Shown here piece by piece: positions 7,794-26,670 of a stretch of 33,049 bases of DNA. The notes under the pieces were generated by a model. That model did no database searches. It was not told the DNA's origin and was given only the letters and a program-made list of their open reading frames with translations. Each line of letters begins with the position of its first letter. Position 1 is the first letter of the stretch. This stretch comes from Geobacteraceae bacterium (lineage in GTDB: Bacteria; Desulfobacterota; Desulfuromonadia; Geobacterales; Pseudopelobacteraceae), in the NCBI GenBank assembly GCA_025355325.1, contig JANXZX010000087.1, positions 1 to 33,049 of the forward strand. The letters run 5' to 3'. Both the position numbers and the translations under genes were made by a program.

Positions 7794-7941
7794 ATGGCCG
7801 ATCCCTGGGTGCCCGGAATGACACATGGAAAGATTAGAGGCGAACGCGTCAGTACTATAGCCAAAATGCCGCAATAGCGCAAGACCGCACCAAAATCGGT
7901 TGCACCGTCTAATGGAACATTATGGCAGAGGGGGAATACAG

Positions 7942-8433
7942 TTGTTTCATATGCATGACATCATATTGGCAGCACCTCTCGTGCTGATCGGCATTGTCCA
8001 CCGCCGGATTGCCCAGAAGGGGGCCTTCTTTTTGGTAGTGTCAAATCTGCCGATTACGATCATGCACGAGTTGGCGCACTATGCATCGGCTTTGCTGCTG
8101 GGTGGCAGACCTGTTGGGTTCAACCTCTGGCCAAAGTTGAAGAACGGCACATGGCAACTGGGCAGCGTTACGGCAAGAGCCACCGTACTATCAGCAGCGC
8201 CAACAGCACTGGCTCCGCTCGTATGGTTTTTAGTCGGCGTTCTGCTGCTGGTAGAAAGAAATACGTTAGCGGAAGGATCAATACTGATGCTCTGCGGCCT
8301 GTATGGTGCCGTGTATTTGTGCGTAGCTGCAAGTATTCCGTCATGGCAGGATATTAAAATTGCCCTTTCCAATCCGCTCAGCCTGATGCTGTGGGGTGCC
8401 ATTCTGATTACCGCTGACTTTGTGATTGGCTGA
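7942..8433 (+). CDS. Small integral membrane protein with HELAH motif (M50-like)
   Basis: A 163-aa protein with four to five hydrophobic segments. HELAH (42-46) lies inside a hydrophobic stretch, as in site-2-protease-type (M50) metallopeptidases, and SIPSWQDI near residue 131 offers an Asp (D137) that could be the third zinc ligand. The usual M50 NPxPxLDG motif is absent and the protein is short. Catalytic activity is therefore unproven. The start is a TTG at 7942, chosen because GGGGGA ends 6 bp before it. ATG 7951 is too far from that site, and ATG 7912 or TTG 7900 have none. It is divergent from the CruF-like gene and convergent with the small Cys protein gene. Confidence 0.65.
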   Translation: MFHMHDIILAAPLVLIGIVHRRIAQKGAFFLVVSNLPITIMHELAHYASALLLGGRPVGFNLWPKLKNGTWQLGSVTARATVLSAAPTALAPLVWFLVGVLLLVERNTLAEGSILMLCGLYGAVYLCVAASIPSWQDIKIALSNPLSLMLWGAILITADFVIG

Positions 8434-8453
8434 ACGCCTGGCAATCATTCCTT

Positions 8454-8630
8454 TTACTCAGCAGGCATGCAGACATTTCTGGAGGAATTTGCCCGAGCAC
8501 CGCAATTTTCACAGCTTACTGTCGGTGCCGAGGTGACTTTCGCCAGCGTTTCCCAATCCTGCTCACTTTCCAGTTCACAGATATGCCCTGCATGCTCTTC
8601 AGCAACCGCACATTTTTTTTCTGAGTTCAT
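8454..8630 (-). CDS. Small cysteine-containing protein (58 aa), function unknown
   Basis: An ATG-started 58-codon frame with GAGGGA about 6 bp upstream. The N-terminal part is charged (MNSEKKCAVAEEHAGHICEL) and the C-terminal part reads CENCGARANSSRNVCMPAE. Cysteines are at 7, 18, 40, 43 and 54, with histidines at 13 and 16. The CxxCGA pair plus NVCxP ending looks like a small zinc- or metal-binding protein, and I have the impression of similar unannotated proteins in Geobacter relatives, which I cannot verify here. It begins 63 bp after the radical SAM gene on the same strand, so it could also be a substrate of that enzyme. Two perfect hairpins lie in the 63-bp gap. Confidence 0.7.
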   Translation of the reverse strand: MNSEKKCAVAEEHAGHICELESEQDWETLAKVTSAPTVSCENCGARANSSRNVCMPAE

Positions 8631-8659
8631 CTAGTTCCCTCTCACTTTAATGCCCACGA

Positions 8660-8690
8660 CCGGTGTTAATACCGGCTACGATTCGTCGTA
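8660..8690. repeat. Two tandem hairpins between the radical SAM and small Cys genes
   Basis: CCGGT-GTTAAT-ACCGG (8660-8675) is followed directly by TACGA-TTCG-TCGTA (8677-8690). Both stems are perfect 5-bp pairs. No U-tract follows on the minus strand, so they do not look like a terminator. They may be transcript-stability or processing elements. Confidence 0.45.
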
Positions 8691-8693
8691 TGA

Positions 8694-9950
8694 TCAAAAA
8701 TACTCCGCCAGTCCGTTCGTAATCTGCTCAAAACGATCTGTTAACTCAGACAATTGACCAGCCGCAAGAGCAACCCGTTCGCTGGCCGAGAGTTCTATCT
8801 CTGGCGCCACGGGCCTCCGTTCAAGATACAGGGCGCGACCTGTTTCCAACACTATTTTTTCGAAAGGATGGCGATAACTGGGATTCTGTAGCAGTGCCGC
8901 TTCATAATAACGAACTCCGGTTTCCGTGAGGGTTCGCAGATAGCCCGCTTCCGTCACTACCTCACCGGAAGCGCACACGGCCTGAGCCGCTCGCCTGCGG
9001 GCAGCTGCATGCTGAAAGCGCCGTTTATAAGGGAATGAACAATAATTGACCGGTAACGGAAGCCCCTGTTCCAATCCGAAACGAACCATCCGCAAAGCGC
9101 ACAGTTCGGATTCAAGTACCGTAATCTTCTCACCATGCACAAAAGTATAGCCACGTTCCGTCAATGGTCCGAAGTTGTGGGGTGTCAATCTCATCTGATG
9201 CAGGTTGAGGTGATTAACTCCCGCTTCGGCCATTTCAACCATCTTTAGTTTCAAGAGTTCTTCATCCTCCGGCACCGCTGGGATTTCAACCGTAACTGTC
9301 GGAATATGCCCCACTGCCAGCCGCAACTTCTTCAGATTATACCGAACGGCCCCCAGATCGAAACGGATTTCATTCAGACCGGCATCCCGCAACCTGACGC
9401 AGAGATCTGTCGTCAGCATGGTGCCATTGGTATACAGCCAGAGGTGCACATCATCGCCACATCGCTGATGCACGGCACTCAGGTAGGCAAGGGTTAAATC
9501 GGGTGTCAGCAACGGTTCGCCTCCACTTATGCTGACACCGTTGAACCCCAGGGCGGCCACATAGGAGGCATAATCGCGGGGATCTGTGAAAGCCAGCCCA
9601 TTAGTGACCGGCGGCCCATCATCATCCTGTGCCGTAGGACAGTAGAAACACCGGCCATTGCAGCGGCCATTGATAAAAAGGCAGGACCAGCCGCCATCGG
9701 CACAGCACCGGCAACCGGGAGAAAGACCGGTGCAATCGACCTTGGTTCCGGCACAGCCGAAAGTTGCATGTTGCGCCAGCCATTTCAGCAGTTCATTCCG
9801 CTCTTCACCTGCAGCAGTCAGTTGTTCACTGGTTGCAAAGGTCAGCAGATCATATTGAAGGCCGTATTCGCGGCGATTAGATTCAATAAGCTGCTGTTGA
9901 GCATCAATCCCGAGTCCGGATTGAACATAAGGTGACAGCGGTATTGGCAC
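8694..9950 (-). CDS. Radical SAM domain protein with extra N-terminal cysteines
   Basis: A cytoplasmic radical SAM enzyme, 418 aa from the GTG at 9950. The cluster motif is CNGRCFYC (C97, C101, C104), and ISGGEP (141-146) is the SAM-binding glycine motif. Six further cysteines lie just upstream (66, 73, 80, 82, 83, 90), and C-terminal cysteines occur in NYCSFPYK and AVCASGE. There is no recognisable SPASM repeat. GTG 9950 follows AAGGA at 7-bp spacing. An ATG at 9998 or TTG at 10004 would add 16 or 18 residues but lack a well-placed Shine-Dalgarno. It follows the PPC-domain gene and precedes the 58-aa Cys protein on the same strand. Reaction and substrate are unknown. Confidence 0.88.
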   Translation of the reverse strand: MPIPLSPYVQSGLGIDAQQQLIESNRREYGLQYDLLTFATSEQLTAAGEERNELLKWLAQHATFGCAGTKVDCTGLSPGCRCCADGGWSCLFINGRCNGRCFYCPTAQDDDGPPVTNGLAFTDPRDYASYVAALGFNGVSISGGEPLLTPDLTLAYLSAVHQRCGDDVHLWLYTNGTMLTTDLCVRLRDAGLNEIRFDLGAVRYNLKKLRLAVGHIPTVTVEIPAVPEDEELLKLKMVEMAEAGVNHLNLHQMRLTPHNFGPLTERGYTFVHGEKITVLESELCALRMVRFGLEQGLPLPVNYCSFPYKRRFQHAAARRRAAQAVCASGEVVTEAGYLRTLTETGVRYYEAALLQNPSYRHPFEKIVLETGRALYLERRPVAPEIELSASERVALAAGQLSELTDRFEQITNGLAEYF

Positions 9951-10079
9951 GAGGAAATCCTTGGTATGAGTATATTTGACGGGTCTTTGGATGTGCATAA
10001 TCAAAGGGTGGAGTTCCTTCCGATTGACGCATCCGGTGAATGGGAACTACTCATCAGCTCTGATTTTCCTGATGATGTT

Positions 10080-10520
10080 TCAAGGGGCAAGCCGCAGCAG
10101 CACCATGCCCGATTCCTGATCGAGTTCCCGGGTGGCATCAATACCAAGGACCTCGGTTATGACAACCTCCAACACCAGGAAAGCCTCACTGTCGCGGCGC
10201 AGGCAGCCTGCTCTGACGCTATCATGCTTGGCATAGGCACCATGAAAATGCACCTTCGGCTGATCACCATGCCAGAAGATGGTGCCGAACCCGGTGGCCT
10301 CGTGACTCTCAGCCAGCTCGCGCCAAACCGGAATCGGCGGCATTTCCTCTGTTTCGGGTCCGACGACATATCCACCCTTCTTGATGCCGCCAACCATACT
10401 GAAGCAGGCAGCCCTCAAACTTTCCTGACGGGCTATCGTCTCCAGGCCTACCAGTACATCGTCACCGTCATTGAAGCGAGCCACAATGACCCGCCCCGGC
10501 TTACCTACCTGATACTGCAT
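10080..10520 (-). CDS. PPC/DUF296 domain protein
   Basis: A 146-aa single-domain protein of the plants-and-prokaryotes-conserved (PPC, DUF296) family, trimeric beta-sandwich proteins, some linked to AT-hook DNA binding. The N-terminal GRVIVARFNDGDDVL, the SMVGGIKKGGY turn and the PKVHFHGAYA segment with a metal-binding-type HxH are typical. It carries no AT-hook. The ATG at 10520 is preceded by GGGGGGA at 4-5 bp. An upstream ATG at 10532 adds MGGY but lies within that Shine-Dalgarno. It lies 24 bp after the rhomboid gene, which suggests cotranscription. A role cannot be named. Confidence 0.88.
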   Translation of the reverse strand: MQYQVGKPGRVIVARFNDGDDVLVGLETIARQESLRAACFSMVGGIKKGGYVVGPETEEMPPIPVWRELAESHEATGFGTIFWHGDQPKVHFHGAYAKHDSVRAGCLRRDSEAFLVLEVVITEVLGIDATRELDQESGMVLLRLAP

Positions 10521-10544
10521 ATATCCCCCCATAAGTGGAAACAG

Positions 10545-12430: not shown

Positions 12431-13888
12431 CTAGATAAGCTTGACTGCCATCTGAGCATATTCCAGTATAATCGATGGAATGATGCCGGGGATCAGTGAA
12501 CCTGCAGCAGAAATAATAAGTGCCAGAGCAACCGGAGCAGTAACCTGTACCCACTCGAATTCTTCAGTTGCATCCTTCATGTACATGTAAACCATGATGC
12601 GAAGATAGTAATATACCGATGCAGCGCTATTCAACACACCGATAACTGCAAGCCAGATATATCCTTTTTGAACAGCACCGGAGAAGAGGTAGAACTTGCC
12701 GATAAACCCGGCGGTTGGAGGCATACCAGCCAATGAAAACAAGAAGAGCGTCATGACGACAGCAAGGACAGGCTTCTTGAAGCCAAGACCTGCGAAGTCG
12801 GAGACATTACCATTAGTCTCACCCTTCTTGGCAACCAGTATGATAATTGCAAAAGCCCCTATATTCATAAAAGCATACGAAAGCATATAAAACAGGATAC
12901 CTGCAGTACCGGTACCATTTCCGGCAGTAAAACCGACCAGCGCATACCCTGCGTGAGCAATTGATGAATAGGCAAGAACACGTTTGATGTTGTCTTGACG
13001 CAGAGCAGTAATGTTACCGACCGTCATGGTTAATACGGCCAAGACCCAAAGGACCTGACTCCATTCTGCCTGAAGAGTCGGCAGAGCAAGCAAGAAGATT
13101 CGGAGCAGTGCAGCAAAACCTGCAGCTTTTGGACCCGCGGACATAAAAGCGGTCATCGGTGTCGGGGCACCTTCATAAACATCAGGAGTCCACATATGGA
13201 ACGGTGCAGCGGCAATTTTAAATGCAAAACCTGTCATCATGAGCAGCATGCCGGCAACCAGCATTATGTTGGCTGATGGAAGAGTCATCTGTCCGACAAT
13301 CGTAGCAATCTTGTAGAGGCGAGTAGTGCCGGTTGCACCATAAATCAAAGCCATACCATACAGGAGGAAGCCGGTTGAAAAGGCACCCAGAAGGAAGTAT
13401 TTAAGGCCGGCCTCGTTGGACTTTTTATTGGCTCTATTGAATCCGGCGAGAACATAAAGCGACACAGACATAACTTCGAGCCCAAGGAATATTGTCATCA
13501 GATCCGTTCCGGAAGCCATCAGCATCATACCGACAACCGTGAAAAGAATCAGAGGATATAACTCGCCATGGTTGCATTCTTCACGCTCCATGTAGCGATC
13601 TGAAATGAGCACCGCAAGTCCGGCAGCCACCAGAAAAATCATCTTGAAAAACGTTGCAAAGTTATCGAGTACCACAGAGCCGCTGAAGCTCTCTACGTGG
13701 GAACCCCACCCTGCTGCAACCAGTACCGCCGATGCGACAATACCGAAAAAACTGATGTATGCCAGATATGTCTTCTGTCCGCCGGGCACAAAAACATTGA
13801 TCAGCAGAAGAGCCATGGCCAGCACGGAGAGAAAAATCTCCGGGAGAATCGGCGTCATGTTGACGGCTGGAATTACAATCATGTCCAT
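12431..13888 (-). CDS. nuoN: NADH-quinone oxidoreductase subunit N
   Basis: An antiporter-like membrane subunit of complex I, 485 aa, about 14 transmembrane helices. Family hallmarks include LEVMSVSLYVLAGF, with the transmembrane glutamate, the PFHMWTPDVYEGAPTP loop after helix 7, and RVLAYSSIAHAGYALVG with the broken-helix lysine region (DNIKRVLAY). These subunits are thought to pump protons through Lys/Glu channels. GGAGGA stands 8 bp upstream of the ATG. It is the last gene of the operon, 37 bp after nuoM and followed by the hairpin terminator. Confidence 0.97.
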   Translation of the reverse strand: MDMIVIPAVNMTPILPEIFLSVLAMALLLINVFVPGGQKTYLAYISFFGIVASAVLVAAGWGSHVESFSGSVVLDNFATFFKMIFLVAAGLAVLISDRYMEREECNHGELYPLILFTVVGMMLMASGTDLMTIFLGLEVMSVSLYVLAGFNRANKKSNEAGLKYFLLGAFSTGFLLYGMALIYGATGTTRLYKIATIVGQMTLPSANIMLVAGMLLMMTGFAFKIAAAPFHMWTPDVYEGAPTPMTAFMSAGPKAAGFAALLRIFLLALPTLQAEWSQVLWVLAVLTMTVGNITALRQDNIKRVLAYSSIAHAGYALVGFTAGNGTGTAGILFYMLSYAFMNIGAFAIIILVAKKGETNGNVSDFAGLGFKKPVLAVVMTLFLFSLAGMPPTAGFIGKFYLFSGAVQKGYIWLAVIGVLNSAASVYYYLRIMVYMYMKDATEEFEWVQVTAPVALALIISAAGSLIPGIIPSIILEYAQMAVKLI

Positions 13889-13925
13889 CTAAAATATCCT
13901 CCGGTCGGATTGACTCGTTATTAAT

Positions 13926-15587
13926 TTACTTTGCTTCGTGCGGATTTACAGCTGGTGTAACTTGTTGTGGTGCAGGTGAAGACCCTTGATTAACAGCAGC
14001 AGGAGTAGCCCCACCGGGATGTCCGGCAGGCATTTGCTGTGCCCCAGGGTGTCCTTCTGGTATCTGTGTTTGAGTTGAAACCGGAATCACTTGGGCAGTA
14101 GCCGGTGAAATACGAACCTGTGCGACAAGTTTCTTGATCGCAGGATCCATTTTATCAATGAATGGCTTAGGATAGAGACCCATAAAAAAGATCATTACCA
14201 GCAGCGGAACCATAATTGTGATTTCGCGGGCATTCAGATCAAGCAGCTTTTGGTTCTTGGGGTTGTCAAGTTCACCAAACATTACTCTCTGGAAAACCCA
14301 GAGCATGTATACAGCTGAAAGGATAACGCCACTTGTTGCGACAACTGTCCACCAGCGCAACTGGCCTTCAAAAGCACCAAGCAGGATCAAAAATTCACCA
14401 ACAAAACCGTTCGTACCAGGCAAGCCAACTGAAGAGAAGGTGACGATCATGAAGATCGTGGCAAATATAGGCATTTGCTTGGACAGGCCACCGAAATCGG
14501 TAATGAGTCGGGTGTGACGGCGTTCGTAAATAAACCCGACGATAAGGAACAGTGCGCCGGTTGATATACCATGGTTAATCATTTGCAGCATACCGCCAGT
14601 AATACCTTCAACATTGAAAGCAAATACGCCAAGCATAACAAAACCAAGGTGAGCAACTGATGAGTAGGCAACCAGTTTTTTAACATCCTCTTGCACCATG
14701 GCGACCAGCGCCGCATAGATGATACCGATTACAGCCAAGGTAGCGATCAGTGGTGCAAACTTGTGTGCAGCCTCAGGGAAAAGCGGTATGGCGAAACGGA
14801 CATAACCATATGTACCCATTTTCAGCAAAACAGCGGCAAGTATTACAGAGCCGGCGGTTGGCGCTTCAGTATGAGCATCCGGTAACCAGGTATGGAGCGG
14901 AAACATCGGAACCTTGATTGCAAACGCAAAGGCAAAAGCGAGAAACAGCCATATCTGTGTTGCCAGATCAAGTTTAAGGCTAAAGAATTGCAGCAGGCCA
15001 AAGTCAGTTATGCCAGCCTCAAGACCTTTGAAGTAAAGGAAGATTAAAGCTACCAGCATCAGTAAGGAACCGACCATCGTGTAGATAAAGAATTTTACAG
15101 CTGCGTAAATTTTGTTTTTTCCACCCCAGATACCGATCATGAAATACATTGGAATCAGCATAACTTCCCAGAAAATGTAGAACAGGAAAAGATCCAGCGA
15201 AATAAATGCGCCAAGCATGCCGGTTTCGAGTAGCAGAAGGCAAATCATGTACTCCTTTACCTTCTCTTCAACGGCGGTAAATGTTGAAAGTACTGCAATA
15301 GGCATGATGAATGTCGTGAGAATAACAAGCCAGAGACTGATCCCATCAATACCAATGTTGTAGCGCATTACGAACGGCCCGGCGGCAATCCAGGGCATGT
15401 TCTCGATAAACTGGAATTCAGCATTACTCTGGAAGCCAGTCAGTATAATCAGCGACACCAGAAAGGTGACAACTGTTACCGCGAGGGTGACATTCCGAAG
15501 TACTCCCTTGCTGTCCTTCGGGATAAACAGCAGCAACAGGACACCCAGTATCGGCAGGAATGTCGTCAGGCTCAGTACGTTACTCAT
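13926..15587 (-). CDS. nuoM: NADH-quinone oxidoreductase subunit M with Pro/Ala-rich tail
   Basis: An antiporter-like complex I subunit, 553 aa. It carries the transmembrane glutamate in IFWEVMLIPMYF, MFPLHTWLPDAHTEAPT, and VKKLVAYSSVAHLGFV. The body ends near residue 500, as usual. It is followed by about 50 residues rich in P, A, Q and G, with two GHPG repeats, that have no counterpart in the subunit M sequences I know. From the inside-out topology of the family the tail should lie free at a membrane face; its function is unknown. Shine-Dalgarno AAGGAG. Confidence 0.97.
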   Translation of the reverse strand: MSNVLSLTTFLPILGVLLLLFIPKDSKGVLRNVTLAVTVVTFLVSLIILTGFQSNAEFQFIENMPWIAAGPFVMRYNIGIDGISLWLVILTTFIMPIAVLSTFTAVEEKVKEYMICLLLLETGMLGAFISLDLFLFYIFWEVMLIPMYFMIGIWGGKNKIYAAVKFFIYTMVGSLLMLVALIFLYFKGLEAGITDFGLLQFFSLKLDLATQIWLFLAFAFAFAIKVPMFPLHTWLPDAHTEAPTAGSVILAAVLLKMGTYGYVRFAIPLFPEAAHKFAPLIATLAVIGIIYAALVAMVQEDVKKLVAYSSVAHLGFVMLGVFAFNVEGITGGMLQMINHGISTGALFLIVGFIYERRHTRLITDFGGLSKQMPIFATIFMIVTFSSVGLPGTNGFVGEFLILLGAFEGQLRWWTVVATSGVILSAVYMLWVFQRVMFGELDNPKNQKLLDLNAREITIMVPLLVMIFFMGLYPKPFIDKMDPAIKKLVAQVRISPATAQVIPVSTQTQIPEGHPGAQQMPAGHPGGATPAAVNQGSSPAPQQVTPAVNPHEAK

Positions 15588-15625
15588 GAATTCTTGCTCC
15601 TTTATACAAAGTGCTTATGAATCAG

Positions 15626-17620
15626 TTATTTAAAAATGAAGTAGCCGAGCATTACAACCACACCAAGCGCCATGGAAAATGCATAATTATATATGTAACC
15701 AGACTGCATGTAGCGGAATATGCCACTGAATCCCATCACAACATTTGCAACACCATTGACAACACCGTCAACAATCACGACGTCAAAGCCTTTCCAGAGG
15801 AACTGGCCAAAAGCCTTGCAGGGGTTTACAAAGATAAAGTCATAAAGCTCATCAACATACCACTTATTGTACACAGCACGGTGGAGAGCAGGGAATGTTG
15901 CAACAAATTTCCCGGGAAGCTCGGTGTTCTTGACGTACATGGTAAAAGCGATAGTAATGCCTACAAGTGCTATTACCACTGACAGCCCCATCAATCCCCA
16001 CTCTACGGCATGACTTGGATGGGCGCCCTGATGTGCATATGTGTGACTGTACTCCGTTGCCAATTCAAATACCGGTTCCAGCCAATGCTCGAAATAGTTG
16101 GGAAGCATTCCAAGAATTTTGGGCATACCGATGTAACCACCGACAACCGCGAGAGTTCCAAGAACCATGAGCGGAATTGTAATAACAAGCGGAGACTCAT
16201 GAAGGTAGCTTTTGGCCTTTGGATTAATGCGGCACTCTCCAAAGAACGTCATGAATACCAGCCTGAACATATAGAAGGCTGTGAAGCACGCTGCTATTGC
16301 ACCAATTCCCCACAGCACTATATTAATATTGCCGTGGTACGGATTTGAAAACGCCATCCAAAGAATTTCATCCTTGGAGAAGAATCCGGAAAAACCAGGA
16401 ATACCCGAAATAGCAATCGTAGAAACAAGGAATGTCAGGAAGGTAATCGGCATGGCGGACTTAAGTCCACCCATATTACGCATATCCTGAGCATCATCAT
16501 GTGAATGAATTTTATGCAGAGCGTGATGCATTGAGTGAATAACTGAACCGGAACCAAGAAACAGACAGGCTTTAAAGAATGCATGTGTCATAAGGTGGAA
16601 AATACCGGCAGTGAATGCGCCGACACCCATCGCAAGGAACATGAAACCAAGCTGAGAAACTGTCGAATAGGCAAGTACGCGTTTTATGTCATTCTGAGCC
16701 GTGCCGATGGTTGCGGCGAAGATTGCGGTAGCAGCACCAACACAAGCAACGACCAGCATTGTGTCGGGGGATTTAATAAATACAAAGCTCATTCTTCCGA
16801 TCATGTAAACACCCGCTGTAACCATTGTTGCTGCATGGATCAGAGCGGATACTGGTGTCGGACCTTCCATAGCATCAGGCAACCAGGTAAAGAGAGGAAT
16901 CTGAGCCGACTTGCCTGTTGCTCCGACAAAGAAGCACAAAGTAGCAATTGTTACAACGCCGCCATACGGGAGCAGATGAGATGCAGCCTTGATTTCAGTG
17001 AAATTGACTGTCCATATATTATGATTGCTGCCAAACCACCAATAGAGAGTGAACAGACCGATCAGGAATCCGAAGTCACCAACGCGGTTCATAACGAAAG
17101 CTTTTTTAGCTGCATCACCGGCAGACTTTTTATGGAAATAGTAACCAATCAGCAGGTACGAGCAGAGACCAACACCTTCCCAACCGATAAACATGACCAG
17201 CATATTAGCGCCGAGCACCAGAAGAAGCATCGACATACAGAAAAGATTCAGGTAAGCAAAGAATCTGTAATATCCTTCTTCTCCATGCATGTATCCAATT
17301 GAATAAAGATGAATCAATGAGCCAACGCCCGTTACTACCATAATCATTACGCATGACAGCGGATCGAGGAGGAAGGCCATATCAGCTTTAAAATTACCGC
17401 ATTGAATCCACGGAAAAACAACCTTCTCAAATACTCTCTGCTCCGGTGGTAGACCGATCATCTGCATGAGTATTCCGCACGACACCAGAAAGGACAGGAA
17501 TATCATCAGCGTACCAATTCCGCCGATTACAGCCTCATTCTTGATCTTTTTCCCGAAGAGCCCGTTGATCAAGAACCCGATGAGCGGGAAGAGCGGTATT
17601 AGCCATACGTTTTCAAACAT
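15626..17620 (-). CDS. nuoL: NADH-quinone oxidoreductase subunit L
   Basis: The distal antiporter-like subunit, 664 aa, with the long lateral helix expected at its C-terminus. Motifs include FIGWEGVGLCSYLLIG with the transmembrane glutamate, QIPLFTWLPDAMEGPTPVSA, NDIKRVLAYSTVSQLGFM and HAFFKACLFL. The C-terminal region ends with a further hydrophobic helix (SMALGVVVMLGYFIF). AAAAGGAG lies 7 bp before the ATG. It starts 54 bp after nuoK. Confidence 0.97.
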   Translation of the reverse strand: MFENVWLIPLFPLIGFLINGLFGKKIKNEAVIGGIGTLMIFLSFLVSCGILMQMIGLPPEQRVFEKVVFPWIQCGNFKADMAFLLDPLSCVMIMVVTGVGSLIHLYSIGYMHGEEGYYRFFAYLNLFCMSMLLLVLGANMLVMFIGWEGVGLCSYLLIGYYFHKKSAGDAAKKAFVMNRVGDFGFLIGLFTLYWWFGSNHNIWTVNFTEIKAASHLLPYGGVVTIATLCFFVGATGKSAQIPLFTWLPDAMEGPTPVSALIHAATMVTAGVYMIGRMSFVFIKSPDTMLVVACVGAATAIFAATIGTAQNDIKRVLAYSTVSQLGFMFLAMGVGAFTAGIFHLMTHAFFKACLFLGSGSVIHSMHHALHKIHSHDDAQDMRNMGGLKSAMPITFLTFLVSTIAISGIPGFSGFFSKDEILWMAFSNPYHGNINIVLWGIGAIAACFTAFYMFRLVFMTFFGECRINPKAKSYLHESPLVITIPLMVLGTLAVVGGYIGMPKILGMLPNYFEHWLEPVFELATEYSHTYAHQGAHPSHAVEWGLMGLSVVIALVGITIAFTMYVKNTELPGKFVATFPALHRAVYNKWYVDELYDFIFVNPCKAFGQFLWKGFDVVIVDGVVNGVANVVMGFSGIFRYMQSGYIYNYAFSMALGVVVMLGYFIFK

Positions 17621-17674
17621 GTAAGACTCCTTTTATGCAATCTTTAAACGTAATCGTAGAGGTTGAATCGTTTG

Positions 17675-17977
17675 CTACCACTTCATCAAATTTACGTCTT
17701 CAACATCAATTGATTCTTTGTTATTGAAAAACGCAATGATAAGTGCCAGACCGACAGCCGCTTCAGCAGCTGCAACGGTCATGATAAAGAAGACAAACAC
17801 TTGTCCATCAAGGTTCCCGAGATGGCGAGAAAATGCGACAAATGTCAGGTTAACGGCATTAAGCATCAGCTCAATACACATGAATACGACAATTGCATTC
17901 TTGCGGGTCAGGACTCCTATTGTACCGATCGCGAAGAGTATGGCGCTTACGACGAGATAACTGTTCAGGTTTTCCAT
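17675..17977 (-). CDS. nuoK: NADH-quinone oxidoreductase subunit K
   Basis: A 100-aa, three-helix membrane subunit. Family residues [12 protein letters not shown] appear as [17 protein letters not shown], with the conserved glutamate in helix 2, and a second acidic position in [12 protein letters not shown] in helix 3. Both lie on the proton path at the E-channel. Shine-Dalgarno AGAGGGA; 14 bp after nuoJ. Confidence 0.97.
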
Positions 17978-17991
17978 GAAATATATCCCTC

Positions 17992-18495
17992 TTATATTTT
18001 TTTCTTGGCAAGAATGACGGCGCCAACAATCGCAACTAACAGCAGAATTGAAGTTATTTCAAACGGCAACAGGAAGTTTGTAAATATTTCCTTACCAACT
18101 AATTCCGTGTGGCCAAGCTTTTTAATCACTTCACCGCTGTAAGGTCCATTAGGCATTGCTGCCTTACTTTTAAACAGTATAAAAAGAGTATTAACCAATG
18201 TGAAGAAGCCGATAATCGAGCCAAGTACAAGTTTATGTGAATGTTTTTTCGATGAATCGACCCGGATATTCAGGAGCATGATCGTGAAGACCATCAGAAC
18301 CATGATTGCACCGGCATAAACCATAACCTGAACAGCAGCCATAAACGGAGCATCAAGCATCACATAGTATGTAGCCAGACAGAAAAAAGTCATTATGAGC
18401 GACAGAGCGCTATTGATCGGATTCTTGCACGTGACAACCAAGATCGCCGAAATAATAGCTACTAACGTAATGATGAGAAAGAAGAGGGTTTCCAT
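17992..18495 (-). CDS. nuoJ: NADH-quinone oxidoreductase subunit J
   Basis: A 167-aa membrane subunit with five predicted helices. The conserved helix 3 reads [20 protein letters not shown], whose tyrosine and small residues form the pi-bulge region coupling quinone reduction to pumping in resolved structures. AAAGGAG precedes the ATG. It starts 11 bp after nuoI. Confidence 0.97.
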
Positions 18496-18506
18496 GCACT
18501 GCTCCT

Positions 18507-18911
18507 TTATTTCTTTTCTAAAAGACGATCTTTGGAGTAGACGAAGTCTTCACGACGGTAATTTGCCAACTCAAACTCGCCGGTCATCCGTATAGCATCA
18601 ACCGGGCATGCTTCAACACAGTATCCACAAAAAATGCACCGCAGCATGTCTATTTCGTAAGTAGCTGCAAATTTGTCGTGGTTTGCATCCTCACCAGCTT
18701 CCACTGTGATACATTTGGCCGGGCAGACGGTTGGGCAAAGATAGCAGGCAACGCATTTCGCTTTGTTATGCGATACATTCAAAGCGTGCAGACCACGAAA
18801 ACGGGCAGCCACTTTTGGTCGTTCTGTAGGATATTGCAACGTCACGGGCTTCATGAACAAGTGTTTCAATGTAATTGCCATGCCGTTAATAATTGGTGTT
18901 ATCGGATTCAT
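18507..18911 (-). CDS. nuoI: NADH-quinone oxidoreductase subunit I (2[4Fe-4S])
   Basis: A 134-aa iron-sulfur subunit of the peripheral arm carrying clusters N6a and N6b that pass electrons to NuoB. Ligands are C53, C56, C59, C63 and C92, C95, C98, C102 in CVACYLCPTVCP and CIFCGYCVEACP. An amphipathic N-terminal helix should anchor it to the membrane arm. GAGGA lies 6 bp upstream of the ATG. Confidence 0.97.
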   Translation of the reverse strand: MNPITPIINGMAITLKHLFMKPVTLQYPTERPKVAARFRGLHALNVSHNKAKCVACYLCPTVCPAKCITVEAGEDANHDKFAATYEIDMLRCIFCGYCVEACPVDAIRMTGEFELANYRREDFVYSKDRLLEKK

Positions 18912-18956
18912 ATTTCCATCCTCGTGTCTGAAATTACGTAACTGATTCAGCTTGTT

Positions 18957-20021
18957 CTAAATAAAAAAGCCGATGATTCCTGTTACTACAATGTTTAGCA
19001 GCGCCACTGGAATAAATACTTTCCAGCCGAGATGCATTAACTGATCATACCGGTAACGCGGCAGTGTCGCGCGAATCCACATGCAGGCAAACATCAGGAA
19101 ATACACTTTAGCAACAAAGTACACTGGTCCGAGCAGCGGAATAGCTGTGGCCAACGGGCCATTCCAACCACCAAGGAACAACGTAGCTGTGAGCGCACAG
19201 ACTGTTACCATGTTTGCATATTCTGCCATAAAGAACATGGCGTACTTCATAGATGAATATTCGGTACAGAAACCTGAAACCAGCTCCGTCTCTGCTTCAG
19301 GAAGGTCGAACGGAGTGCGGTTAATTTCGGCAAGCGAGCAGATGAAGAAGATAAACGCAGCCAACGGTTGTTTAAAGATGTACCACTCAAAGCCACCCAA
19401 TCCAGACTGAAGTTCTACGATTTTTGTAAGTGACAGCGTACCGGACAGCATAAAAACTGCTATAATTGACAGTCCAGCTGATAATTCATACGATATCATC
19501 TGTGCAGAGGCACGCAATCCACCCATCAGAGAGTATTTGCTGTTTGATGCCCATCCCGCCAGGACAATTCCGTAAACACCAAGCGATGACATAGCCAGGA
19601 CATAAAGCACACCGACATTTACGTCGAAGACCTGACCGGCAGCGGTATCGTAATATGCCGCAACCTGAAGAGGTATCTTGTAACCAGCAATCTCAATGGT
19701 GCCGCCAAATGGTATAACAGCGAATGTAATAAACGCCGGTATGAGAGCAATCAGCGGAGCAATCAAAAATGCAAACGTGCTTGCCTGTGAAGGGATGATC
19801 TCCTCTTTAAAGAAAAGCTTGACCCCGTCGGCAATCGGCTGCAGCAATCCGTGCCACCCTGTGCGCATAGGTCCAAGGCGAACCTGCATATGGCCGATAA
19901 TTTTGCGCTCGGCATATGTGGCGTAGGCTACGGTCAGCAGCACAAAGACAAAAGCCACCAGGACCTTGACAACCATAGCGATGTAATACATCAGCGGAAG
20001 TCCTAATATCTCGATTCCCAT
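18957..20021 (-). CDS. nuoH: NADH-quinone oxidoreductase subunit H
   Basis: A 354-aa membrane subunit that forms most of the quinone-binding chamber. It has about eight helices and the conserved loops AERKIIGHMQVRLGPMRTG, GVKLFFKEEIIP, SLAEINRTPFDLPEAE and LVSGFCTEYSS. The acidic residues of these loops lie on the quinone side. The C-terminus has LPRYRYDQLMHLGWK. AAAGAGGGA precedes the ATG. It lies 57 bp after nuoG. Confidence 0.97.
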   Translation of the reverse strand: MGIEILGLPLMYYIAMVVKVLVAFVFVLLTVAYATYAERKIIGHMQVRLGPMRTGWHGLLQPIADGVKLFFKEEIIPSQASTFAFLIAPLIALIPAFITFAVIPFGGTIEIAGYKIPLQVAAYYDTAAGQVFDVNVGVLYVLAMSSLGVYGIVLAGWASNSKYSLMGGLRASAQMISYELSAGLSIIAVFMLSGTLSLTKIVELQSGLGGFEWYIFKQPLAAFIFFICSLAEINRTPFDLPEAETELVSGFCTEYSSMKYAMFFMAEYANMVTVCALTATLFLGGWNGPLATAIPLLGPVYFVAKVYFLMFACMWIRATLPRYRYDQLMHLGWKVFIPVALLNIVVTGIIGFFI

Positions 20022-20078
20022 CTGTCCCTCTTTCCTTGCTTGTATAAATTAGTTAAATCCAGCAGTTAATATGAGTAA

Positions 20079-22556
20079 TTATCTTTTTGCCAACGTAACA
20101 AACGTAACTGGGGATCCGCTCCAGATTGTATTAACCGGAGAATCACTGAAATGATACGGAGCAAATACAACACCTGCCGGGATACGTGTACTAATTTTTG
20201 CTTTAAGTTGCAGACTGCCAGTTGCAGATGAAACCGTAACAAGATCGTTATTAGCAATTTTATTAGCTGAGGCATCTGAATGTGACATTTCGATGTAACC
20301 TTCTGGACAAACATGCATCGGGCCCTCTCCATACTGCGAGAGAGTACCGTTATGATATAGTGCACTGCCAATAACAAGAGCCAGTTTACCCTGTTCGACT
20401 GGAATTGCTGAAGTGGCTTGCGGTATGACAAAAGCCGGAGTTATTACAACAGATGCAAAAGCGCTATCTTTTTTCAGGGCAACATGGCTCATACCTTGAT
20501 AGCCCGGTACGCCTTCGGAAATTTCTTTAAAAACAGCAGAACCTGATGCAGGAGCATTTCCACCGAGTCTTGCAATCAGATCAGAGAAGACTTCGTAATC
20601 TGTTTTGATCTGCACGTTTTTCCGGATTGCCGGTTTAAAGTATTGAACGCGGCGATCCGCGCTGGTGAAGGTGCCTTCTTTCTCTGCGAAAGAACATACT
20701 GGCAAAACGACATCGGCCATGGCCGCCGTCTCGGAAAGGAATAATTCAGAAACAACAAGGAACTCAACAGAATCAAGAGCAGCTTTGACTTTGCTGCGAT
20801 TCGGATATGTAGTCAGTGGGTTTTCACCGGCAATAAAAAGTGTTTTAACAGTACCGTTAGTACAGGCATCCAGTACTTGCATGCCATTCAAGCCACCATT
20901 CTGAGCGTAAAAGCCCATGTCAACGGCACCCTGGCTGTTGTTCTTCTCAGACAGACAAAGGACTCCACACCCTTCTTTACCATATTTGCCGGTTAATATT
21001 GCCAGGTTTGCAACCGCACTTGCCAGATCAGCATTATGACCGGTGTACGCCTGACCTGTCGGGAATATTATGAGAGTTTTCTCGGCAGAAGCGTAATCTG
21101 ATGCGAGTTTTTTGATTGCTGCCGCAGTCAAACCGCACTGATCAGCAACCGCTTCAGCGCTAAAAGCAGACAAAGCACTCACCAGTTCAGCAAAACCTGG
21201 TACTGATGCTACAGCATCGTTAGACAGCTTCTCATCAAGAATAGTCTTTGCAATTGAGTTCAATAGCGCAACTTCACTGCCCGGACGGTGAACAAGAGTA
21301 ACTGCATCCGGCAATTTTGAAAGCTTGCCCCGTTTATCTGACAGTATATTGAGCTTAACGCCTTTATTCTTTACTGCCATGTTTATTTCAAACCCGACTA
21401 CCGGGTGTGTTTCATAAGTATCGGTCTTTATTACGAGGAGCAGATCGCTTTTTTGAATATCAAGTATACTTGCAGATGATGCACTTGTACCAAAGCTGCG
21501 TACAAAACCCTCCGTTAGCGCCGAATGTGCGTAACCGGCTGCGTGGTCATAATTCTTGGTACCAACGTTCTCATCCAATAATTTTTTAAAGAGTACAAAC
21601 TCTTCGTTCGTGAGGCGAGGTGTCGCCAGTGCAGCGACAGAACCGGCATCCTTAAGGCGTCCGGCAACAAGTCCAAGTGCCTCATCCCATGTAGATTCTG
21701 TCAGTACACCGTTCTTTTTAATCAATGGTTTCATTAAACGCTTGGTACTGTTAATAAACTGGTAACCAAAGCGGCCACGCACACATAACTGGCCTTTGTG
21801 AAAACCCTGATTCTCATCGTATATTGTTGTCAGTATCTTATTGTCTTTTACGCCTAATGTCAGACCGCAACCGGTACCACAGTATCCGCAAACAGACTTC
21901 TCTTTTGTAAGCGACCAGAAACGGGCCTTGAATTTGAACGGACGGGCAAGGAGTGATCCAACCGGACAAACTGAAATACACGATCCGCAAAACTCGCAGT
22001 TTAAGGCTTCATCGAACTCGCACCCGATCTTTGTCTCAATTCCGCGATCAATAAAAGTCAAGGCACCATAACTGACTATTTCATCACAGATTCGCGCGCA
22101 CTTACCGCACAGAACGCAACGGTTCATGTCACGTTCAATCAGTGGATTGTTATAGTCGATCTCGTGGTGAAACTTTTCATCACTGAAACGGTTGCTATCA
22201 ACTTTGTATTCATAGGTTAAATTCTGAAGATCACAGTCACCGGCTTTATCGCAGACAGGGCAATCAAGAGGATGATTGAGCAATAACAACTCAAGTACCA
22301 TTTTCCGTGCTTTGACAATATCCGGTGTTGCAGTACGAATTATCATCCCTTCAGTTACAGGGGTCGTACATGCTGGGATCTGCCGCCCTTTCATCTGTTC
22401 AACCTCAACCAGACACATACGGCATGCACCGAAAGGTTTAAGTTTCTTGTCGTGACACAGAATCGGAATATTAACTCCGTTCATCTTGGCCGCTTCGTAA
22501 ATAGTCGCGGTTTTGGGTGCTGTAACCTGCTTGTCATCTATTGTAAGATTTACCAT
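20079..22556 (-). CDS. nuoG: NADH-quinone oxidoreductase subunit G
   Basis: The large iron-sulfur subunit of the peripheral arm, 825 aa. The 2Fe-2S cluster N1b has C34, C45, C48 and C63. The His-Cys3 4Fe-4S cluster N5 has H95, C99, C102 and C108. A ferredoxin pair follows: C147, C150, C153, C157 and C187, C190, C193, C197. Then comes a molybdopterin-oxidoreductase-like domain with its own cluster, CGYCGTGC (C223, C226, C230 and C258), equivalent to N7. The first ferredoxin set (CVLCGKCARIC) is all-cysteine. The C-terminal molybdopterin-dinucleotide-binding-like domain is complete, but a bound cofactor is not expected in complex I. AGAGGTTGAG precedes the ATG. Confidence 0.96.
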   Translation of the reverse strand: MVNLTIDDKQVTAPKTATIYEAAKMNGVNIPILCHDKKLKPFGACRMCLVEVEQMKGRQIPACTTPVTEGMIIRTATPDIVKARKMVLELLLLNHPLDCPVCDKAGDCDLQNLTYEYKVDSNRFSDEKFHHEIDYNNPLIERDMNRCVLCGKCARICDEIVSYGALTFIDRGIETKIGCEFDEALNCEFCGSCISVCPVGSLLARPFKFKARFWSLTKEKSVCGYCGTGCGLTLGVKDNKILTTIYDENQGFHKGQLCVRGRFGYQFINSTKRLMKPLIKKNGVLTESTWDEALGLVAGRLKDAGSVAALATPRLTNEEFVLFKKLLDENVGTKNYDHAAGYAHSALTEGFVRSFGTSASSASILDIQKSDLLLVIKTDTYETHPVVGFEINMAVKNKGVKLNILSDKRGKLSKLPDAVTLVHRPGSEVALLNSIAKTILDEKLSNDAVASVPGFAELVSALSAFSAEAVADQCGLTAAAIKKLASDYASAEKTLIIFPTGQAYTGHNADLASAVANLAILTGKYGKEGCGVLCLSEKNNSQGAVDMGFYAQNGGLNGMQVLDACTNGTVKTLFIAGENPLTTYPNRSKVKAALDSVEFLVVSELFLSETAAMADVVLPVCSFAEKEGTFTSADRRVQYFKPAIRKNVQIKTDYEVFSDLIARLGGNAPASGSAVFKEISEGVPGYQGMSHVALKKDSAFASVVITPAFVIPQATSAIPVEQGKLALVIGSALYHNGTLSQYGEGPMHVCPEGYIEMSHSDASANKIANNDLVTVSSATGSLQLKAKISTRIPAGVVFAPYHFSDSPVNTIWSGSPVTFVTLAKR

Positions 22557-22600
22557 CTCAACCTCTGTTCAGTGAGTTTGACCGTGAGCGTGATTGGTTA

Positions 22601-24382
22601 CTATTCAAGCGCCATAAAGCGACAGGCATCGTAGCAAGATTTACATTTGGTGCATTTTTCCTTGTCCAAAACAGCCAGTTGGCCCTTTTCCCAAATAATA
22701 GCATCAACCGGACAGGCTTTTTTACAGGCGCCGCATTTTACGCATTTGTCCTCTACAACCTGCCACAGAAGCAACTCTTTACAACAGTTGGACGGACAAC
22801 GCTTGTCGTTGATATGTGCCTCATACTCATCCCGGAAATAATTTATCGTGGAGAGGATCGGGTTAGGAGCTGTCTGACCAAGTCCACAGAGCGAAGCTTT
22901 CTTGATAGCGATTCCCAGATCTTGCAGGGTCTCAATATCAGATGGTATTCCACGCCCTTCGGTGATTCGCTCCAGAATATCAAGCATGACCTTGAGGCCT
23001 ATACGGCATGGGACACACTTGCCGCAGGACTCATCTCTGGTAAAGTTAAGAAAGAAGCGAGACACATCAACCATACAGGTAGTCTCATCCATAACTACCA
23101 GACCACCGGAACCCATCATGGCACCGGCCTTGATCAGGGAGTCATAATCCACCGGAGTATCCAGAATCTCGGCAGGTATACAACCGCCGGATGGTCCACC
23201 GGCCTGAACTGCCTTGAATTTACGATTATTGGCGATGCCGCCGCAGACGTCATAAATAACTTCGCGGATTTTCATTCCTGCCGGTACTTCCACCAGACCG
23301 GTGTGTTTAACTTTTCCGGTAACGGCGAAGATTTTTGTACCTTTGGTTGTCTCTGTGCCGAGCGAGGCGTACCAGTCGCCACCTTTATTAATGATGTGGC
23401 GAACGTTACCGAAAGTTTCTACGTTATTGATATTGGTGGGCTTGCCCCACAGACCCCGGACGGCAGGAAAAGGCGGACGGGGACGGCTCATGCCGCGATG
23501 TCCCTCAATGGAGGCCATCAGCGCGGTTTCCTCACCGCAAACAAACGCTCCTGCTCCCATCTTGATACGCATATCAAAGTCGAAGCCCCAACCCTGGATA
23601 TTCTTACCAAGGTAGTTTTTCTCGTAACAGATATCTATCGCGTGCTGCAAACGCTGAACGGCCAGCGGATACTCGGCACGAACATACACGTAACCAAAAT
23701 CACAACCAATTGCATACGCGGCAATCATCATTCCTTCGATAATGCAGTAGGGGTCACCTTCCAAAAGGGAACGATCCATGAATGCGCCCGGATCACCTTC
23801 ATCGGCATTACAGATAAGATATTTGTGATCTCCAGGTGAGGCCTTGCAGAATGACCATTTCATTCCGGTCGGGAAGCCACCGCCGCCTCGTCCACGCAGA
23901 CCGGATTTTTTAACTTCCTCAATAACCTCTTCAGGTTTCATGCTCTTAATGCACTTTTCTATCGCCTTGAAGCCATCTTCCTCTTTGTAGGCATCGATAC
24001 TGTCCGGATCAATCTGTCCGCAGCCGGTCATAACAACGCGCATCTGAGCGTCAACAAACTGATTGTAGTAAGGCTTGGCCTTACGTTTTTCTAAAACAGT
24101 TTTACCGACGATATGCTCATCAATAATCTTTTCAACTTCTTCAGGCTTAACAAAATCGTAGGTAATTCGGCCCTGTTCCGGAGTGATAATATCAACCAGA
24201 ACGTCGTTGGCACAAAGTCCGCGACACCCGGTTTTGATGACATCACACCGCTTGCCAACTACGGCATCAACACCTTTTTCAGCGAGAATCTTGACGAAAG
24301 CCGCCTCAACCTCTTTGGCGCCCATCGAAACACCGCCGGTACCCTGGCAGATCAGAATTTTAATACCTGCGTTTTCGCTCAT
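22601..24382 (-). CDS. nuoF: NADH-quinone oxidoreductase subunit F, long form
   Basis: The FMN and NADH-site subunit, 593 aa, longer than the classical ~430-450 aa. Domains: a thioredoxin-like ferredoxin domain (about 1-95); the FMN/NADH core with GRGGGGFPTGMKW (164-176) and NADEGDPGAF (192-201); N3 cluster ligands C453, C456, C459 and C499; and an added C-terminal ferredoxin with C547, C550, C553, C557 and C577, C580, C583, C587. This layout is that of NuoF/HydB/HndC-type proteins from anaerobes. In the thioredoxin-like domain the usual CxxxxC is C12-x4-G17; C46, C53 and C57 remain. The extra ferredoxin may allow exchange with soluble ferredoxin (inference). Confidence 0.96.
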   Translation of the reverse strand: MSENAGIKILICQGTGGVSMGAKEVEAAFVKILAEKGVDAVVGKRCDVIKTGCRGLCANDVLVDIITPEQGRITYDFVKPEEVEKIIDEHIVGKTVLEKRKAKPYYNQFVDAQMRVVMTGCGQIDPDSIDAYKEEDGFKAIEKCIKSMKPEEVIEEVKKSGLRGRGGGGFPTGMKWSFCKASPGDHKYLICNADEGDPGAFMDRSLLEGDPYCIIEGMMIAAYAIGCDFGYVYVRAEYPLAVQRLQHAIDICYEKNYLGKNIQGWGFDFDMRIKMGAGAFVCGEETALMASIEGHRGMSRPRPPFPAVRGLWGKPTNINNVETFGNVRHIINKGGDWYASLGTETTKGTKIFAVTGKVKHTGLVEVPAGMKIREVIYDVCGGIANNRKFKAVQAGGPSGGCIPAEILDTPVDYDSLIKAGAMMGSGGLVVMDETTCMVDVSRFFLNFTRDESCGKCVPCRIGLKVMLDILERITEGRGIPSDIETLQDLGIAIKKASLCGLGQTAPNPILSTINYFRDEYEAHINDKRCPSNCCKELLLWQVVEDKCVKCGACKKACPVDAIIWEKGQLAVLDKEKCTKCKSCYDACRFMALE

Positions 24383-24421
24383 GACTGAATTGTCCCCTGC
24401 TGGATAGTTTCGAGCTTCATG

Positions 24422-24934
24422 CTATTTCAGTGGTCTCTGGCTGTAGTCAGCAACAATATCATCAACCTTTTGTACCGTCATGCCACCATATGTTGAATCA
24501 TTAACCATTGCCAGTGGTGCCATTCCACAGGCTCCAAGGCATGCAACCTTCTCGAAGGTAAACCGCAAGTCGGCAGTTGTCTCGGCATGTCCGATATGCA
24601 ACTTGTCGAAGAACGTTTCAACTATGCGGGGGGCGCCTTGAACGTGACATGCTGTACCCACGCAGACACGGATAATAAATTTGCCGCGCGGTTTGAGATG
24701 AAACTGGGCATAAAAAGTGAGCACACCATAGATCTGGCTTGGGTAAACATTCAAACGCTCTGCAATATGATCCGCCACGGCACGGGGTATGTACCCGTAT
24801 TCGTCTTGAGCTGCCTGAAGGACAGGCATCAGATTGCCAGGGATATCAATATATTTATCGATGATAGCATCAGCTATCGAAAGGTCTACTTCAGGTTCTG
24901 TTTCTTCTGCTTGCTGCGCCACTACGTCACTCAT
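24422..24934 (-). CDS. nuoE: NADH-quinone oxidoreductase subunit E
   Basis: The 24-kDa-type subunit with the N1a [2Fe-2S] cluster in a thioredoxin-like fold, 170 aa. Ligands are C91, C96, C132 and C136 (CVGTACHVQG and CLGACGMAP). The ATG at 24934 is chosen because AAAGGAG lies 9 bp upstream. The frame can be extended by three codons to 24943, but that ATG abuts the Shine-Dalgarno. The N-terminal 20 residues are acidic and probably disordered. Confidence 0.96.
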   Translation of the reverse strand: MSDVVAQQAEETEPEVDLSIADAIIDKYIDIPGNLMPVLQAAQDEYGYIPRAVADHIAERLNVYPSQIYGVLTFYAQFHLKPRGKFIIRVCVGTACHVQGAPRIVETFFDKLHIGHAETTADLRFTFEKVACLGACGMAPLAMVNDSTYGGMTVQKVDDIVADYSQRPLK

Positions 24935-24963
24935 GCGCCCCATCTCCTTTGAATCGTGCGGAG

Positions 24964-26136
24964 TTATCTGTCAATTTCACCGAGGACGATATCCAAGGTT
25001 CCGATTACAGCCACCAAGTCGGCAATCATTGTACCTACGCTCATCTTTTCAATGGCTTGAAGATTCACGAATGATGGCGGGCGAATTCTCATCCGCTCCG
25101 GCTTGTTGCCACCGTCACTGACGATATAAAAGCCAAGTTCGCCTTTTGGCGCTTCAACTCCTTGGTAAACTTCACCTTCCGGCGCAGGGAACCCTTCAGA
25201 TGCAATCTTGAAGTGATGAATCAGTCCTTCGATGCTATTGTACACGTTTTCTTTCGGTGGATAGCAGACCTGCGGACAATCAGCCAGCACTGGACCGGGC
25301 TTGAGCCTATCCAGAGCCTGCCGCACAATCTTACAGGCTTCGCGCATCTCAATCAGACGCACTTTGTATCTATCAAACGTATCGCAGTTCTCTCCCACCG
25401 GCACCTTGAACTGGTATTTGTCGTAACCGCTGTACGGATTGTCGCGACGAAGATCCCAATCAACACCCGAGCCACGAAGCGCCGGACCGGTAATACCGAA
25501 GTCGATGGCATCTTCAGCAGAAATTACACCGTTGCCGATAGTACGCTTGAGCCAGATCGGGTTTGTCGTCAAAAGGCCCTCATACTGATCCAGATAACCA
25601 GGCATCACATTGATAAAATCGCTGACTTTTTTGACAAATTCATCAGGGACATCCTGCGACAAGCCACCGACACGGAAAAAGTTCGACGTCATACGGGCAC
25701 CGGAGATAAGCTCGTAAATCTCCATGACTGTCTCACGCTCGCGAAACGCATAAATAAATACCGTCATGGCACCGATATCGAGAGCATGGCACGCTATCCA
25801 GACCAAATGCGATTCCAGACGAGTCAACTCAGCCATAATAATCCGGATAGTCTCGGCCCTGTCAGGCACTTCAACACCCATCAACTTCTCAACCGCCAGA
25901 ATATATCCCAGGTTGTTGCTCATCGGTGCCAGATAATCAAGGCGGTCGGTAAGCGGGAGAATCTGGTGGTACGTACGATGCTCTGACAGTTTTTCAACGC
26001 CACGATGCAGGTAGCCGATATGAGGAGTGACCTTGACAATCACCTCACCGTCAAGCTCGAGTACAAGCCGCAGAACCCCGTGGGTACTGGGATGCTGTGG
26101 GCCCATATTTAGTGTCATTGTTTCAGTAGTAGCCAT
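24964..26136 (-). CDS. nuoD: NADH-quinone oxidoreductase subunit D
   Basis: The 49-kDa-type subunit that forms the quinone site with NuoB, 390 aa. It is related to the large subunit of NiFe hydrogenases but lacks the metal cysteines. Family blocks are NMGPQHPSTHGVLRLVLEL, PHIGYLHRGVEKL, DYLAPMSNNLGY, ESHLVWIACHALDIGA and RGSGVDWDLRRDNPY. The HPSTHG histidines and the downstream Asp contact quinone in known structures. AAGAGG precedes the ATG. It is a separate gene and not a NuoCD fusion, with a 45-bp gap from nuoC. Confidence 0.97.
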   Translation of the reverse strand: MATTETMTLNMGPQHPSTHGVLRLVLELDGEVIVKVTPHIGYLHRGVEKLSEHRTYHQILPLTDRLDYLAPMSNNLGYILAVEKLMGVEVPDRAETIRIIMAELTRLESHLVWIACHALDIGAMTVFIYAFRERETVMEIYELISGARMTSNFFRVGGLSQDVPDEFVKKVSDFINVMPGYLDQYEGLLTTNPIWLKRTIGNGVISAEDAIDFGITGPALRGSGVDWDLRRDNPYSGYDKYQFKVPVGENCDTFDRYKVRLIEMREACKIVRQALDRLKPGPVLADCPQVCYPPKENVYNSIEGLIHHFKIASEGFPAPEGEVYQGVEAPKGELGFYIVSDGGNKPERMRIRPPSFVNLQAIEKMSVGTMIADLVAVIGTLDIVLGEIDR

Positions 26137-26181
26137 GTAGTGCCTCTTATAGTATCGGATTACAGAACGATGTAGTAAAAA

Positions 26182-26670
26182 CTATGACAAACGCCCTTTA
26201 TACGGCTCACGATCAGGTCCCTGCAATGGATAATCTTTACGCAGAGGATGTCCGACCCAGTCATCTGTCATGAGTATGCGGCGCAGATCCGGATGTCCTT
26301 CAAACGTGACACCAAAAAGATCGTATACTTCTCGCTCAAGCCAGTTGGCTGTGCGCCAGACCTGGGTAGCGGTCGGTATACTACAGTTCTCTTCGGAAAC
26401 AGGAGTCTTGATTCGCAAGCGATCCTTATTGGGAATTGAGTAGAGCAGATAAACCATCATGAAACGCTCTTCTTTTTTTCCCAAATAATCCACTGCGGTA
26501 AGATCTGTCAGGAGATTGTACTGAAGCGACTGCTTAAGGAAAGAAAGGATTTCAATAATCGCAGTTTTTGCCACGGTTACTGTTACCTCCCCTCTGAACT
26601 CGACTACATCGATGATTGAAGCGGCGAACTTTTCCCTTAGCTTCTGCACTGCACGATTATTTTCTGCCAT
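26182..26670 (-). CDS. nuoC: NADH-quinone oxidoreductase subunit C
   Basis: The 30-kDa-type subunit, 162 aa, packing against NuoD in the peripheral arm with no cofactor. The conserved end reads ANWLEREVYDLFGVTFEGHP...RILMTDDWVGHPLRKDYPL. ATG 26670 is chosen; the open frame extends three codons to a TTG at 26679, but AAGGG sits at a better distance from the ATG. It is 53 bp after nuoB. Confidence 0.96.
   Translation of the reverse strand: MAENNRAVQKLREKFAASIIDVVEFRGEVTVTVAKTAIIEILSFLKQSLQYNLLTDLTAVDYLGKKEERFMMVYLLYSIPNKDRLRIKTPVSEENCSIPTATQVWRTANWLEREVYDLFGVTFEGHPDLRRILMTDDWVGHPLRKDYPLQGPDREPYKGRLS

Follow-up and report, generated by a model that had tools for sequence, protein, structure and literature searches.

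Is a short gene lying directly downstream of a radical SAM gene its dedicated partner, or are the two genes functionally separate? The question is raised by a 33,049-nucleotide stretch of DNA from a Geobacteraceae bacterium (the whole of this stretch is referred to here as the window). A sequence-only reading of the window had pointed out that a 58-aa protein with five cysteines and two histidines is encoded 63 bp downstream of a radical SAM gene, on the same strand, and this layout was confirmed by the open reading frames. Both genes are uncharacterised. The features concerned are listed below.

7900..8433, + strand: M50B-like peptidase neighbour, convergent (PF13398, E 5.6e-5, 23.4 bits, below the cut-off of 26)
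8454..8630, - strand: small gene, 58-aa Cys/His miniprotein of the CELES subfamily (ORF, sequence, relatives)
8631..8693, - strand: intergenic gap of 63 bp (pattern scan)
8694..9950, - strand: orphan radical SAM enzyme, 418 aa (ORF, PF04055, relatives, model)
9039..9041, - strand: codon of C320 (NYCS), a possible fourth auxiliary ligand or catalytic cysteine (39/39 members)
9639..9662, - strand: CNGRCFYC, SAM [4Fe-4S] cluster motif, C113/C117/C120 (39/39 members)
9681..9713, - strand: C96 to C106 stretch, CxxCx6C, with the probable auxiliary Fe-S ligands C96/C99/C106 (39/39 members; putative cluster)
10080..10532, - strand: PCC/DUF296-domain protein, upstream of the enzyme (PF03479, E 7.4e-22)

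Gene models and layout

The small open reading frame runs from an ATG to a TAA; its product carries C7, H13, H16, C18, C40, C43 and C54 and ends in CENCGARANSSRNVCMPAE. It is a real gene, with relatives of up to 74% identity aligned over nearly their full length, and so is the enzyme gene, which has relatives up to 82% identical. The frame of the enzyme remains open up to a TTG at 10004, and the GTG at 9950 gives a protein of 418 aa. As this is the commonest length among the relatives (10 of the 38 listed) and an AAGGA stands 7 bases before that GTG, 8694-9950 is the likely gene; cysteines are numbered here on the 434-aa frame that begins at the ATG at 9998.

A pattern scan of positions 8300-10200 placed no terminator-like site between the two genes. 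The three terminator-like sites found in that interval all lie at 9649-9695 (1.7 expected in shuffles), and the promoter-like sites (two found, 1.7 expected) were not used. With a gap of 63 bp and no reported terminator-like site within it, the two genes could possibly share one transcript. The M50B-like peptidase is outside the system, and the PCC/DUF296 neighbour was matched in the window's own locus only, among the enzyme loci compared. A run of complex I (nuo) genes, named by reading, adjoins the studied pair (window 12431-27586, - strand).

The radical SAM enzyme

Membership of the radical SAM superfamily is clear from the PF04055 score (46.4 bits, cut-off 29.5), the CxxxCxxC motif (39/39 members), the GGEP motif and the radical SAM barrel of the AlphaFold model (mean pLDDT 90.0), for which the best structure match has a Z of 14.3 over 218 residues (rmsd 3.5). 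Viperin (Z 14.3), PFL activase (13.4), LipA (13.4) and NifB (13.0) all score high and are tied, with GDGT-MAS also at 13.0; many radical SAM structures thus match about equally, and the fold names no function. By sequence, the nearest PDB relative is MoaA. The enzyme has no curated equivalog: its best NCBIfam match is moaA, at 51.5 bits against a cut-off of 284, and all 25 matches listed, out of 38, score well below their cut-offs, a similarity at superfamily level only. In a general Pfam search, PF04055 and PF13353 are its only matches at E <= 1; the RRE, a PqqD-like recognition domain, is described as present in most, not all, RiPP classes (PMC7470986).

The sequence-only reading had also drawn attention to six further cysteines ahead of CNGRCFYC. 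All six are there (C82, C89, C96, C98, C99 and C106), but only C96, C99 and C106 occur in 39 of 39 aligned members, together with C320 and the C113/C117/C120 of the cluster motif; C89 is found in 32/39, C98 in 9/39 and C82 in 4/39. This alignment omits four partial rows (L043, L073, L092 and L096), and in a set of 31 that includes L092, C96 is nearly invariant. Of the six extra cysteines, three thus appear to remain, joined by the distant C320; four is the number of ligands that one auxiliary Fe-S cluster usually has, and their invariance makes C96, C99, C106 and probably C320 the probable ligands of such a cluster.

An auxiliary cluster with cysteines N-terminal to the SAM motif is also a feature of GDGT-MAS, the tetraether synthase (PDB 7tol), which matches the enzyme model over 244 residues (Z 13.0, rmsd 3.9). 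The N-terminal cluster of GDGT-MAS is held by C73, C77, C80 and a His (PMC9433317), a CxxxCxxC pattern. The enzyme differs in having CxxCx6C at this place, and the sequence match between the two has an E-value of 0.49. The SPGCxxCxxGxWSC stretch is an extra feature of the enzyme relative to known radical SAM proteins, and its family has a C-terminal GLxEYF-like ending of its own (7 of the 12 members shown, with close variants in three more). In a distant relative (L095:1033-3444, - strand), the enzyme part follows a GlcNAc-type glycosyltransferase domain (PF11397, E 6.2e-66) in a single fused protein, possibly a functional hint for the family.

The small protein and its paralogues

The small protein belongs to a paralogous family, with six members in the window's own genome (the window's included). 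Of 98 genomes, the own one among them, 88 have one member or more, and a profile found the family in 34 of 297 genomes of the phylum. H13, H16, C18, C40, C43 and C54 are invariant in 29 main-clade members, and C7 is nearly so. In 12 members chosen for divergence, invariance is restricted to C18, C40, C43, A47, C54 and P56. A metal site formed by the four invariant cysteines would be the simplest reading of this pattern.

Small zinc-ribbon and rubredoxin-like proteins resemble the family in having four cysteines, one CxxC among them, and a length of about 60 aa. In rubredoxin, two CxxC knuckles hold one iron. The small protein differs from these proteins in its single CxxC pair, accompanied by the isolated C18 and C54, and is not a rubredoxin by this measure. 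Nor does it reach the cut-off of any known zinc-ribbon family, its best Pfam score being 14.7 bits against 23. The best Pfam E-value among the 29 members was 0.0035, and in NCBIfam the window's protein and seven other members were all below the cut-off. The predicted structure has a mean pLDDT of 81.4 and a pTM of 0.59. Foldseek returned no match for it at E <= 0.001 and, of the 106 chains compared by VIA-align, not one reached Z >= 2; the fold may nevertheless be a known one.

Retroviral nucleocapsid knuckles gave the best PDB profile match (E 0.026, about 20 residues), and this kinship was not accepted. Fusions of the small domain, which could have pointed to a function, were also considered: none of 11 members with long frames was convincing on reading of the frames, their extra length being upstream or in short tails. 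Two different paralogues stand in tandem at L076:3193-3652 (W and CELES subfamilies) and at L024:934-1337. Another paralogue, short and divergent, has the four core cysteines but no HxxH (G000:C155; L071:5020-5199) and lies just downstream of a protein read as rhodanese-like.

Distribution and adjacency

The enzyme was detected in 42 of the 98 genomes searched (own genome and relatives, E <= 1e-90), a number that counts G060, where the gene is a piece with stops, and G027, where it is divided between two contigs; across the phylum it was detected in 11 of 297 genomes (E <= 1e-40, own genome included). A contig scan gave 495 confirmed places, and the 80 best were retained as named loci; judging by record titles, Geobacter, Desulfuromonadales and other deltaproteobacteria make up most of them, alongside two Deferribacterales-type records and one each from Latescibacterota and Omnitrophota. 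Geomonas azotofigens has a copy 62% identical (L155). The gene neighbours of the enzyme vary between genomes. Broken or remnant pieces, with inner stops or short matches at 58-74% identity, were seen at G060:C32, G005:C1:54889-55068 and G042:C8:53620-53730, and suggest repeated loss. Searches of plasmid records with the enzyme and with one W-type small protein gave no match.

A gene of the small family lies directly downstream of the enzyme in three of the 80 named loci (the best 80 of 495), 77 of which have at least 500 bp of downstream sequence; in two more, a family member is located about 3 kb away. The three loci (L101, L123 and L134, the same places as L075, L074 and L073) carry a gene of the W subfamily (HKGHICWLSRMG) rather than the window's CELES. 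Among the 98 genomes, adjacency was found in the window and for three further enzyme copies. Members of the small family occur in every one of the 42 genomes with the enzyme and in 46 of the 56 without it. CELES itself shows no association with the enzyme (12/42 genomes with it, 9/56 without, Fisher p 0.15). Subfamilies were called by E-value against one query each (CELES <= 4.6e-17, W 1e-18, M strict <= ~3e-24), and borderline members may be misplaced by such single-query assignment.

The suggestion that the small protein is a substrate, RiPP-like or otherwise, is largely refuted by these figures: the window's subfamily, checked for co-occurrence and adjacency as that suggestion had proposed, neither stays next to the enzyme nor co-occurs with it, whereas W does co-occur. 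A dedicated peptide-maturase pair was rejected on the same two grounds. Radical SAM enzymes with cysteine-containing peptide targets are known, and together with the adjacency and shared direction of the two genes in the window they speak for a RiPP-like pair, in which the enzyme would place a thioether or another modification on a cysteine of the 58-aa protein. Such a pair is nevertheless very improbable, given the rarity of adjacency, the frequency of the small family in enzyme-less genomes and the invariance of the four core cysteines in members from genomes both with and without an enzyme match. SPASM-type maturases, moreover, have a C-terminal multi-cysteine SPASM set. No such pattern is present in the enzyme, where C320 is the sole invariant cysteine past C120, and the 25 NCBIfam matches listed, out of 38, include no maturase model close to its cut-off. 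The GeoRSP and geopeptide systems (TIGR04303 and TIGR04280), presumably named after Geobacter, likewise have radical SAM enzymes; against their models the enzyme scores 21.2 and 18.8 bits, with cut-offs of 400.

The enzyme might instead act on the small protein by maturing its metal site or by radical activation. The presence of PFL activase among the fold matches (Z 13.4, 199 residues, rmsd 2.9) is consistent with this, although it is tied there with viperin, LipA and NifB. A glycyl radical enzyme would be far larger than 58 aa, and the distribution that argues against a RiPP-like pair applies equally here; this explanation is hardly credible. A literature search noticed no paper on the enzyme and small protein as a pair, and absence from print is not claimed.

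Co-occurrence with the W paralogue

W was found in 28 of the 42 genomes with the enzyme and in nine of the 56 without it (Fisher p 6e-7), the association having p 0.039 within the genus and p 0.036 outside it. Raw Fisher tests were also positive for the controls M strict (p 0.012, 98 genomes) and M50B (p 0.003, 93 genomes), which shows that kinship inflates them. The C112 paralogue could not serve as a control, because its 15 matches outside G000 fell on places found by the M query.

Kinship was taken into account with a single-gene HemL tree of 93 genomes, five genomes without a HemL match having been dropped. A dependent model for enzyme and W was favoured over an independent one in the full set (LR 17.1, p 0.002), and for strict W in complete genomes the LR was 13.5, a value reached in none of the 89 simulations completed out of 120. 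Controls tested with the enzyme gave LR values of 0.5 to 3.4 (CELES 0.5, M 3.1, M50B 3.1). A near-ubiquitous carotenoid-type control, however, reached 14.3 with the enzyme (12.1 in complete genomes), the trend being negative, and 15.5 with W. The tree test is thus prone to false signals and was not relied on; the co-occurrence of W and enzyme is a hint, not a result.

This hint, and the adjacency of W to the enzyme, would fit W and CELES miniproteins acting, unmodified, as one-iron or zinc redox or accessory partners of iron-sulfur enzymes, this one included. The genomic settings of CELES point the same way. In 20 CELES loci besides the window's, korAB was found in three, rubrerythrin in four and nitroreductase in two, for five loci in all, and genes of a flavodoxin-like type are also among the neighbours. 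The CELES gene stands directly after the alpha/beta genes of 2-oxoacid:ferredoxin oxidoreductase at L268:4208-7969, L269:6588-9759 and L270:3676-7956, and before a rubrerythrin gene at L268, L270 and L271:6738-8214; at L268-L271, CELES and the 2-oxoacid:ferredoxin oxidoreductase and/or rubrerythrin genes look like one operon. Such neighbours are absent from 15 of the 20 CELES loci and 27 of the 30 W loci, in fetched flanks of about 1.5 kb, and the LR of 17.1 is not clearly exceptional beside the carotenoid-type control. General partnership with iron-sulfur enzymes is, on balance, unlikely. The 30 W loci fetched, out of 39 W matches listed, include ten that adjoin a gene read as prfB and three that adjoin the enzyme.

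A probable shared neighbourhood

The adjacency in the window can be explained by a neighbourhood common to several loci. The window has the order NuoN-HemK-rhomboid-PCC-enzyme-CELES, and L074 has HemK-rhomboid-EamA-enzyme-W. NuoN-HemK (both named by reading) is followed by W in the enzyme-less L371 and L372, and HemK is near W, again without the enzyme, in L370. In L371 and L372, the W gene is a few kb past the end of the nuo run. Enzyme and small gene appear to be long-standing occupants of a single neighbourhood, kept, broken or refilled according to lineage. In the window, a CELES gene may have replaced a W gene; the own genome has its W gene on another contig (C206).

Because adjacency is rare (3/80 of the best 80 of 495 loci), the neighbours of the enzyme vary, the small family has six paralogues in the genome and CELES is independent of the enzyme, the two genes are probably functionally separate and share an old neighbourhood, one encoding an orphan radical SAM enzyme and the other a four-cysteine metal miniprotein. 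The co-occurrence of W, its position directly downstream of the enzyme in three genomes, the presence of the small family in every enzyme-bearing genome and the 63-bp gap that would allow one transcript are points against separateness. The earlier idea of an independent metal protein is, accordingly, favoured by the six paralogues, the four invariant cysteines and the other genomic settings; a weaker link to W persists as a hint.

If the two genes are separate, the enzyme would act as a stand-alone radical SAM enzyme, in which the [4Fe-4S] cluster of CxxxCxxC would cleave SAM reductively, a chemistry suggested by the motif and the fold family, while C96, C99, C106 and probably C320 would hold the auxiliary cluster. 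A dedicated neighbour peptide is unlikely to be its substrate. The small protein would fold around one metal ion, zinc or iron, through C18, C40, C43 and C54, with HxxH and C7 being typical of its main clade; its family has expanded to several paralogues per genome and, as a group, would not be tied to the enzyme. It is also conceivable, but rather doubtful, that each paralogue is a dedicated one-metal partner (redox carrier or adaptor), with CELES serving 2-oxoacid:ferredoxin oxidoreductase and rubrerythrin units and W serving this enzyme, in which case the window would represent a swap of paralogues at one position next to the enzyme.

Significance

A single window in which two genes are adjacent offers little ground for calling a peptide-maturase pair. 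The locus also brings out two families for which the present Pfam and NCBIfam searches gave no family-specific model: radical SAM enzymes with an N-terminal auxiliary-cluster stretch, confirmed at 495 places in one scan, and the multi-paralogue four-cysteine miniproteins of Geobacter relatives. If W is truly linked to the enzyme, or CELES to redox operons, the miniproteins would add new electron-transfer or adaptor partners to a group known for its electron transport.
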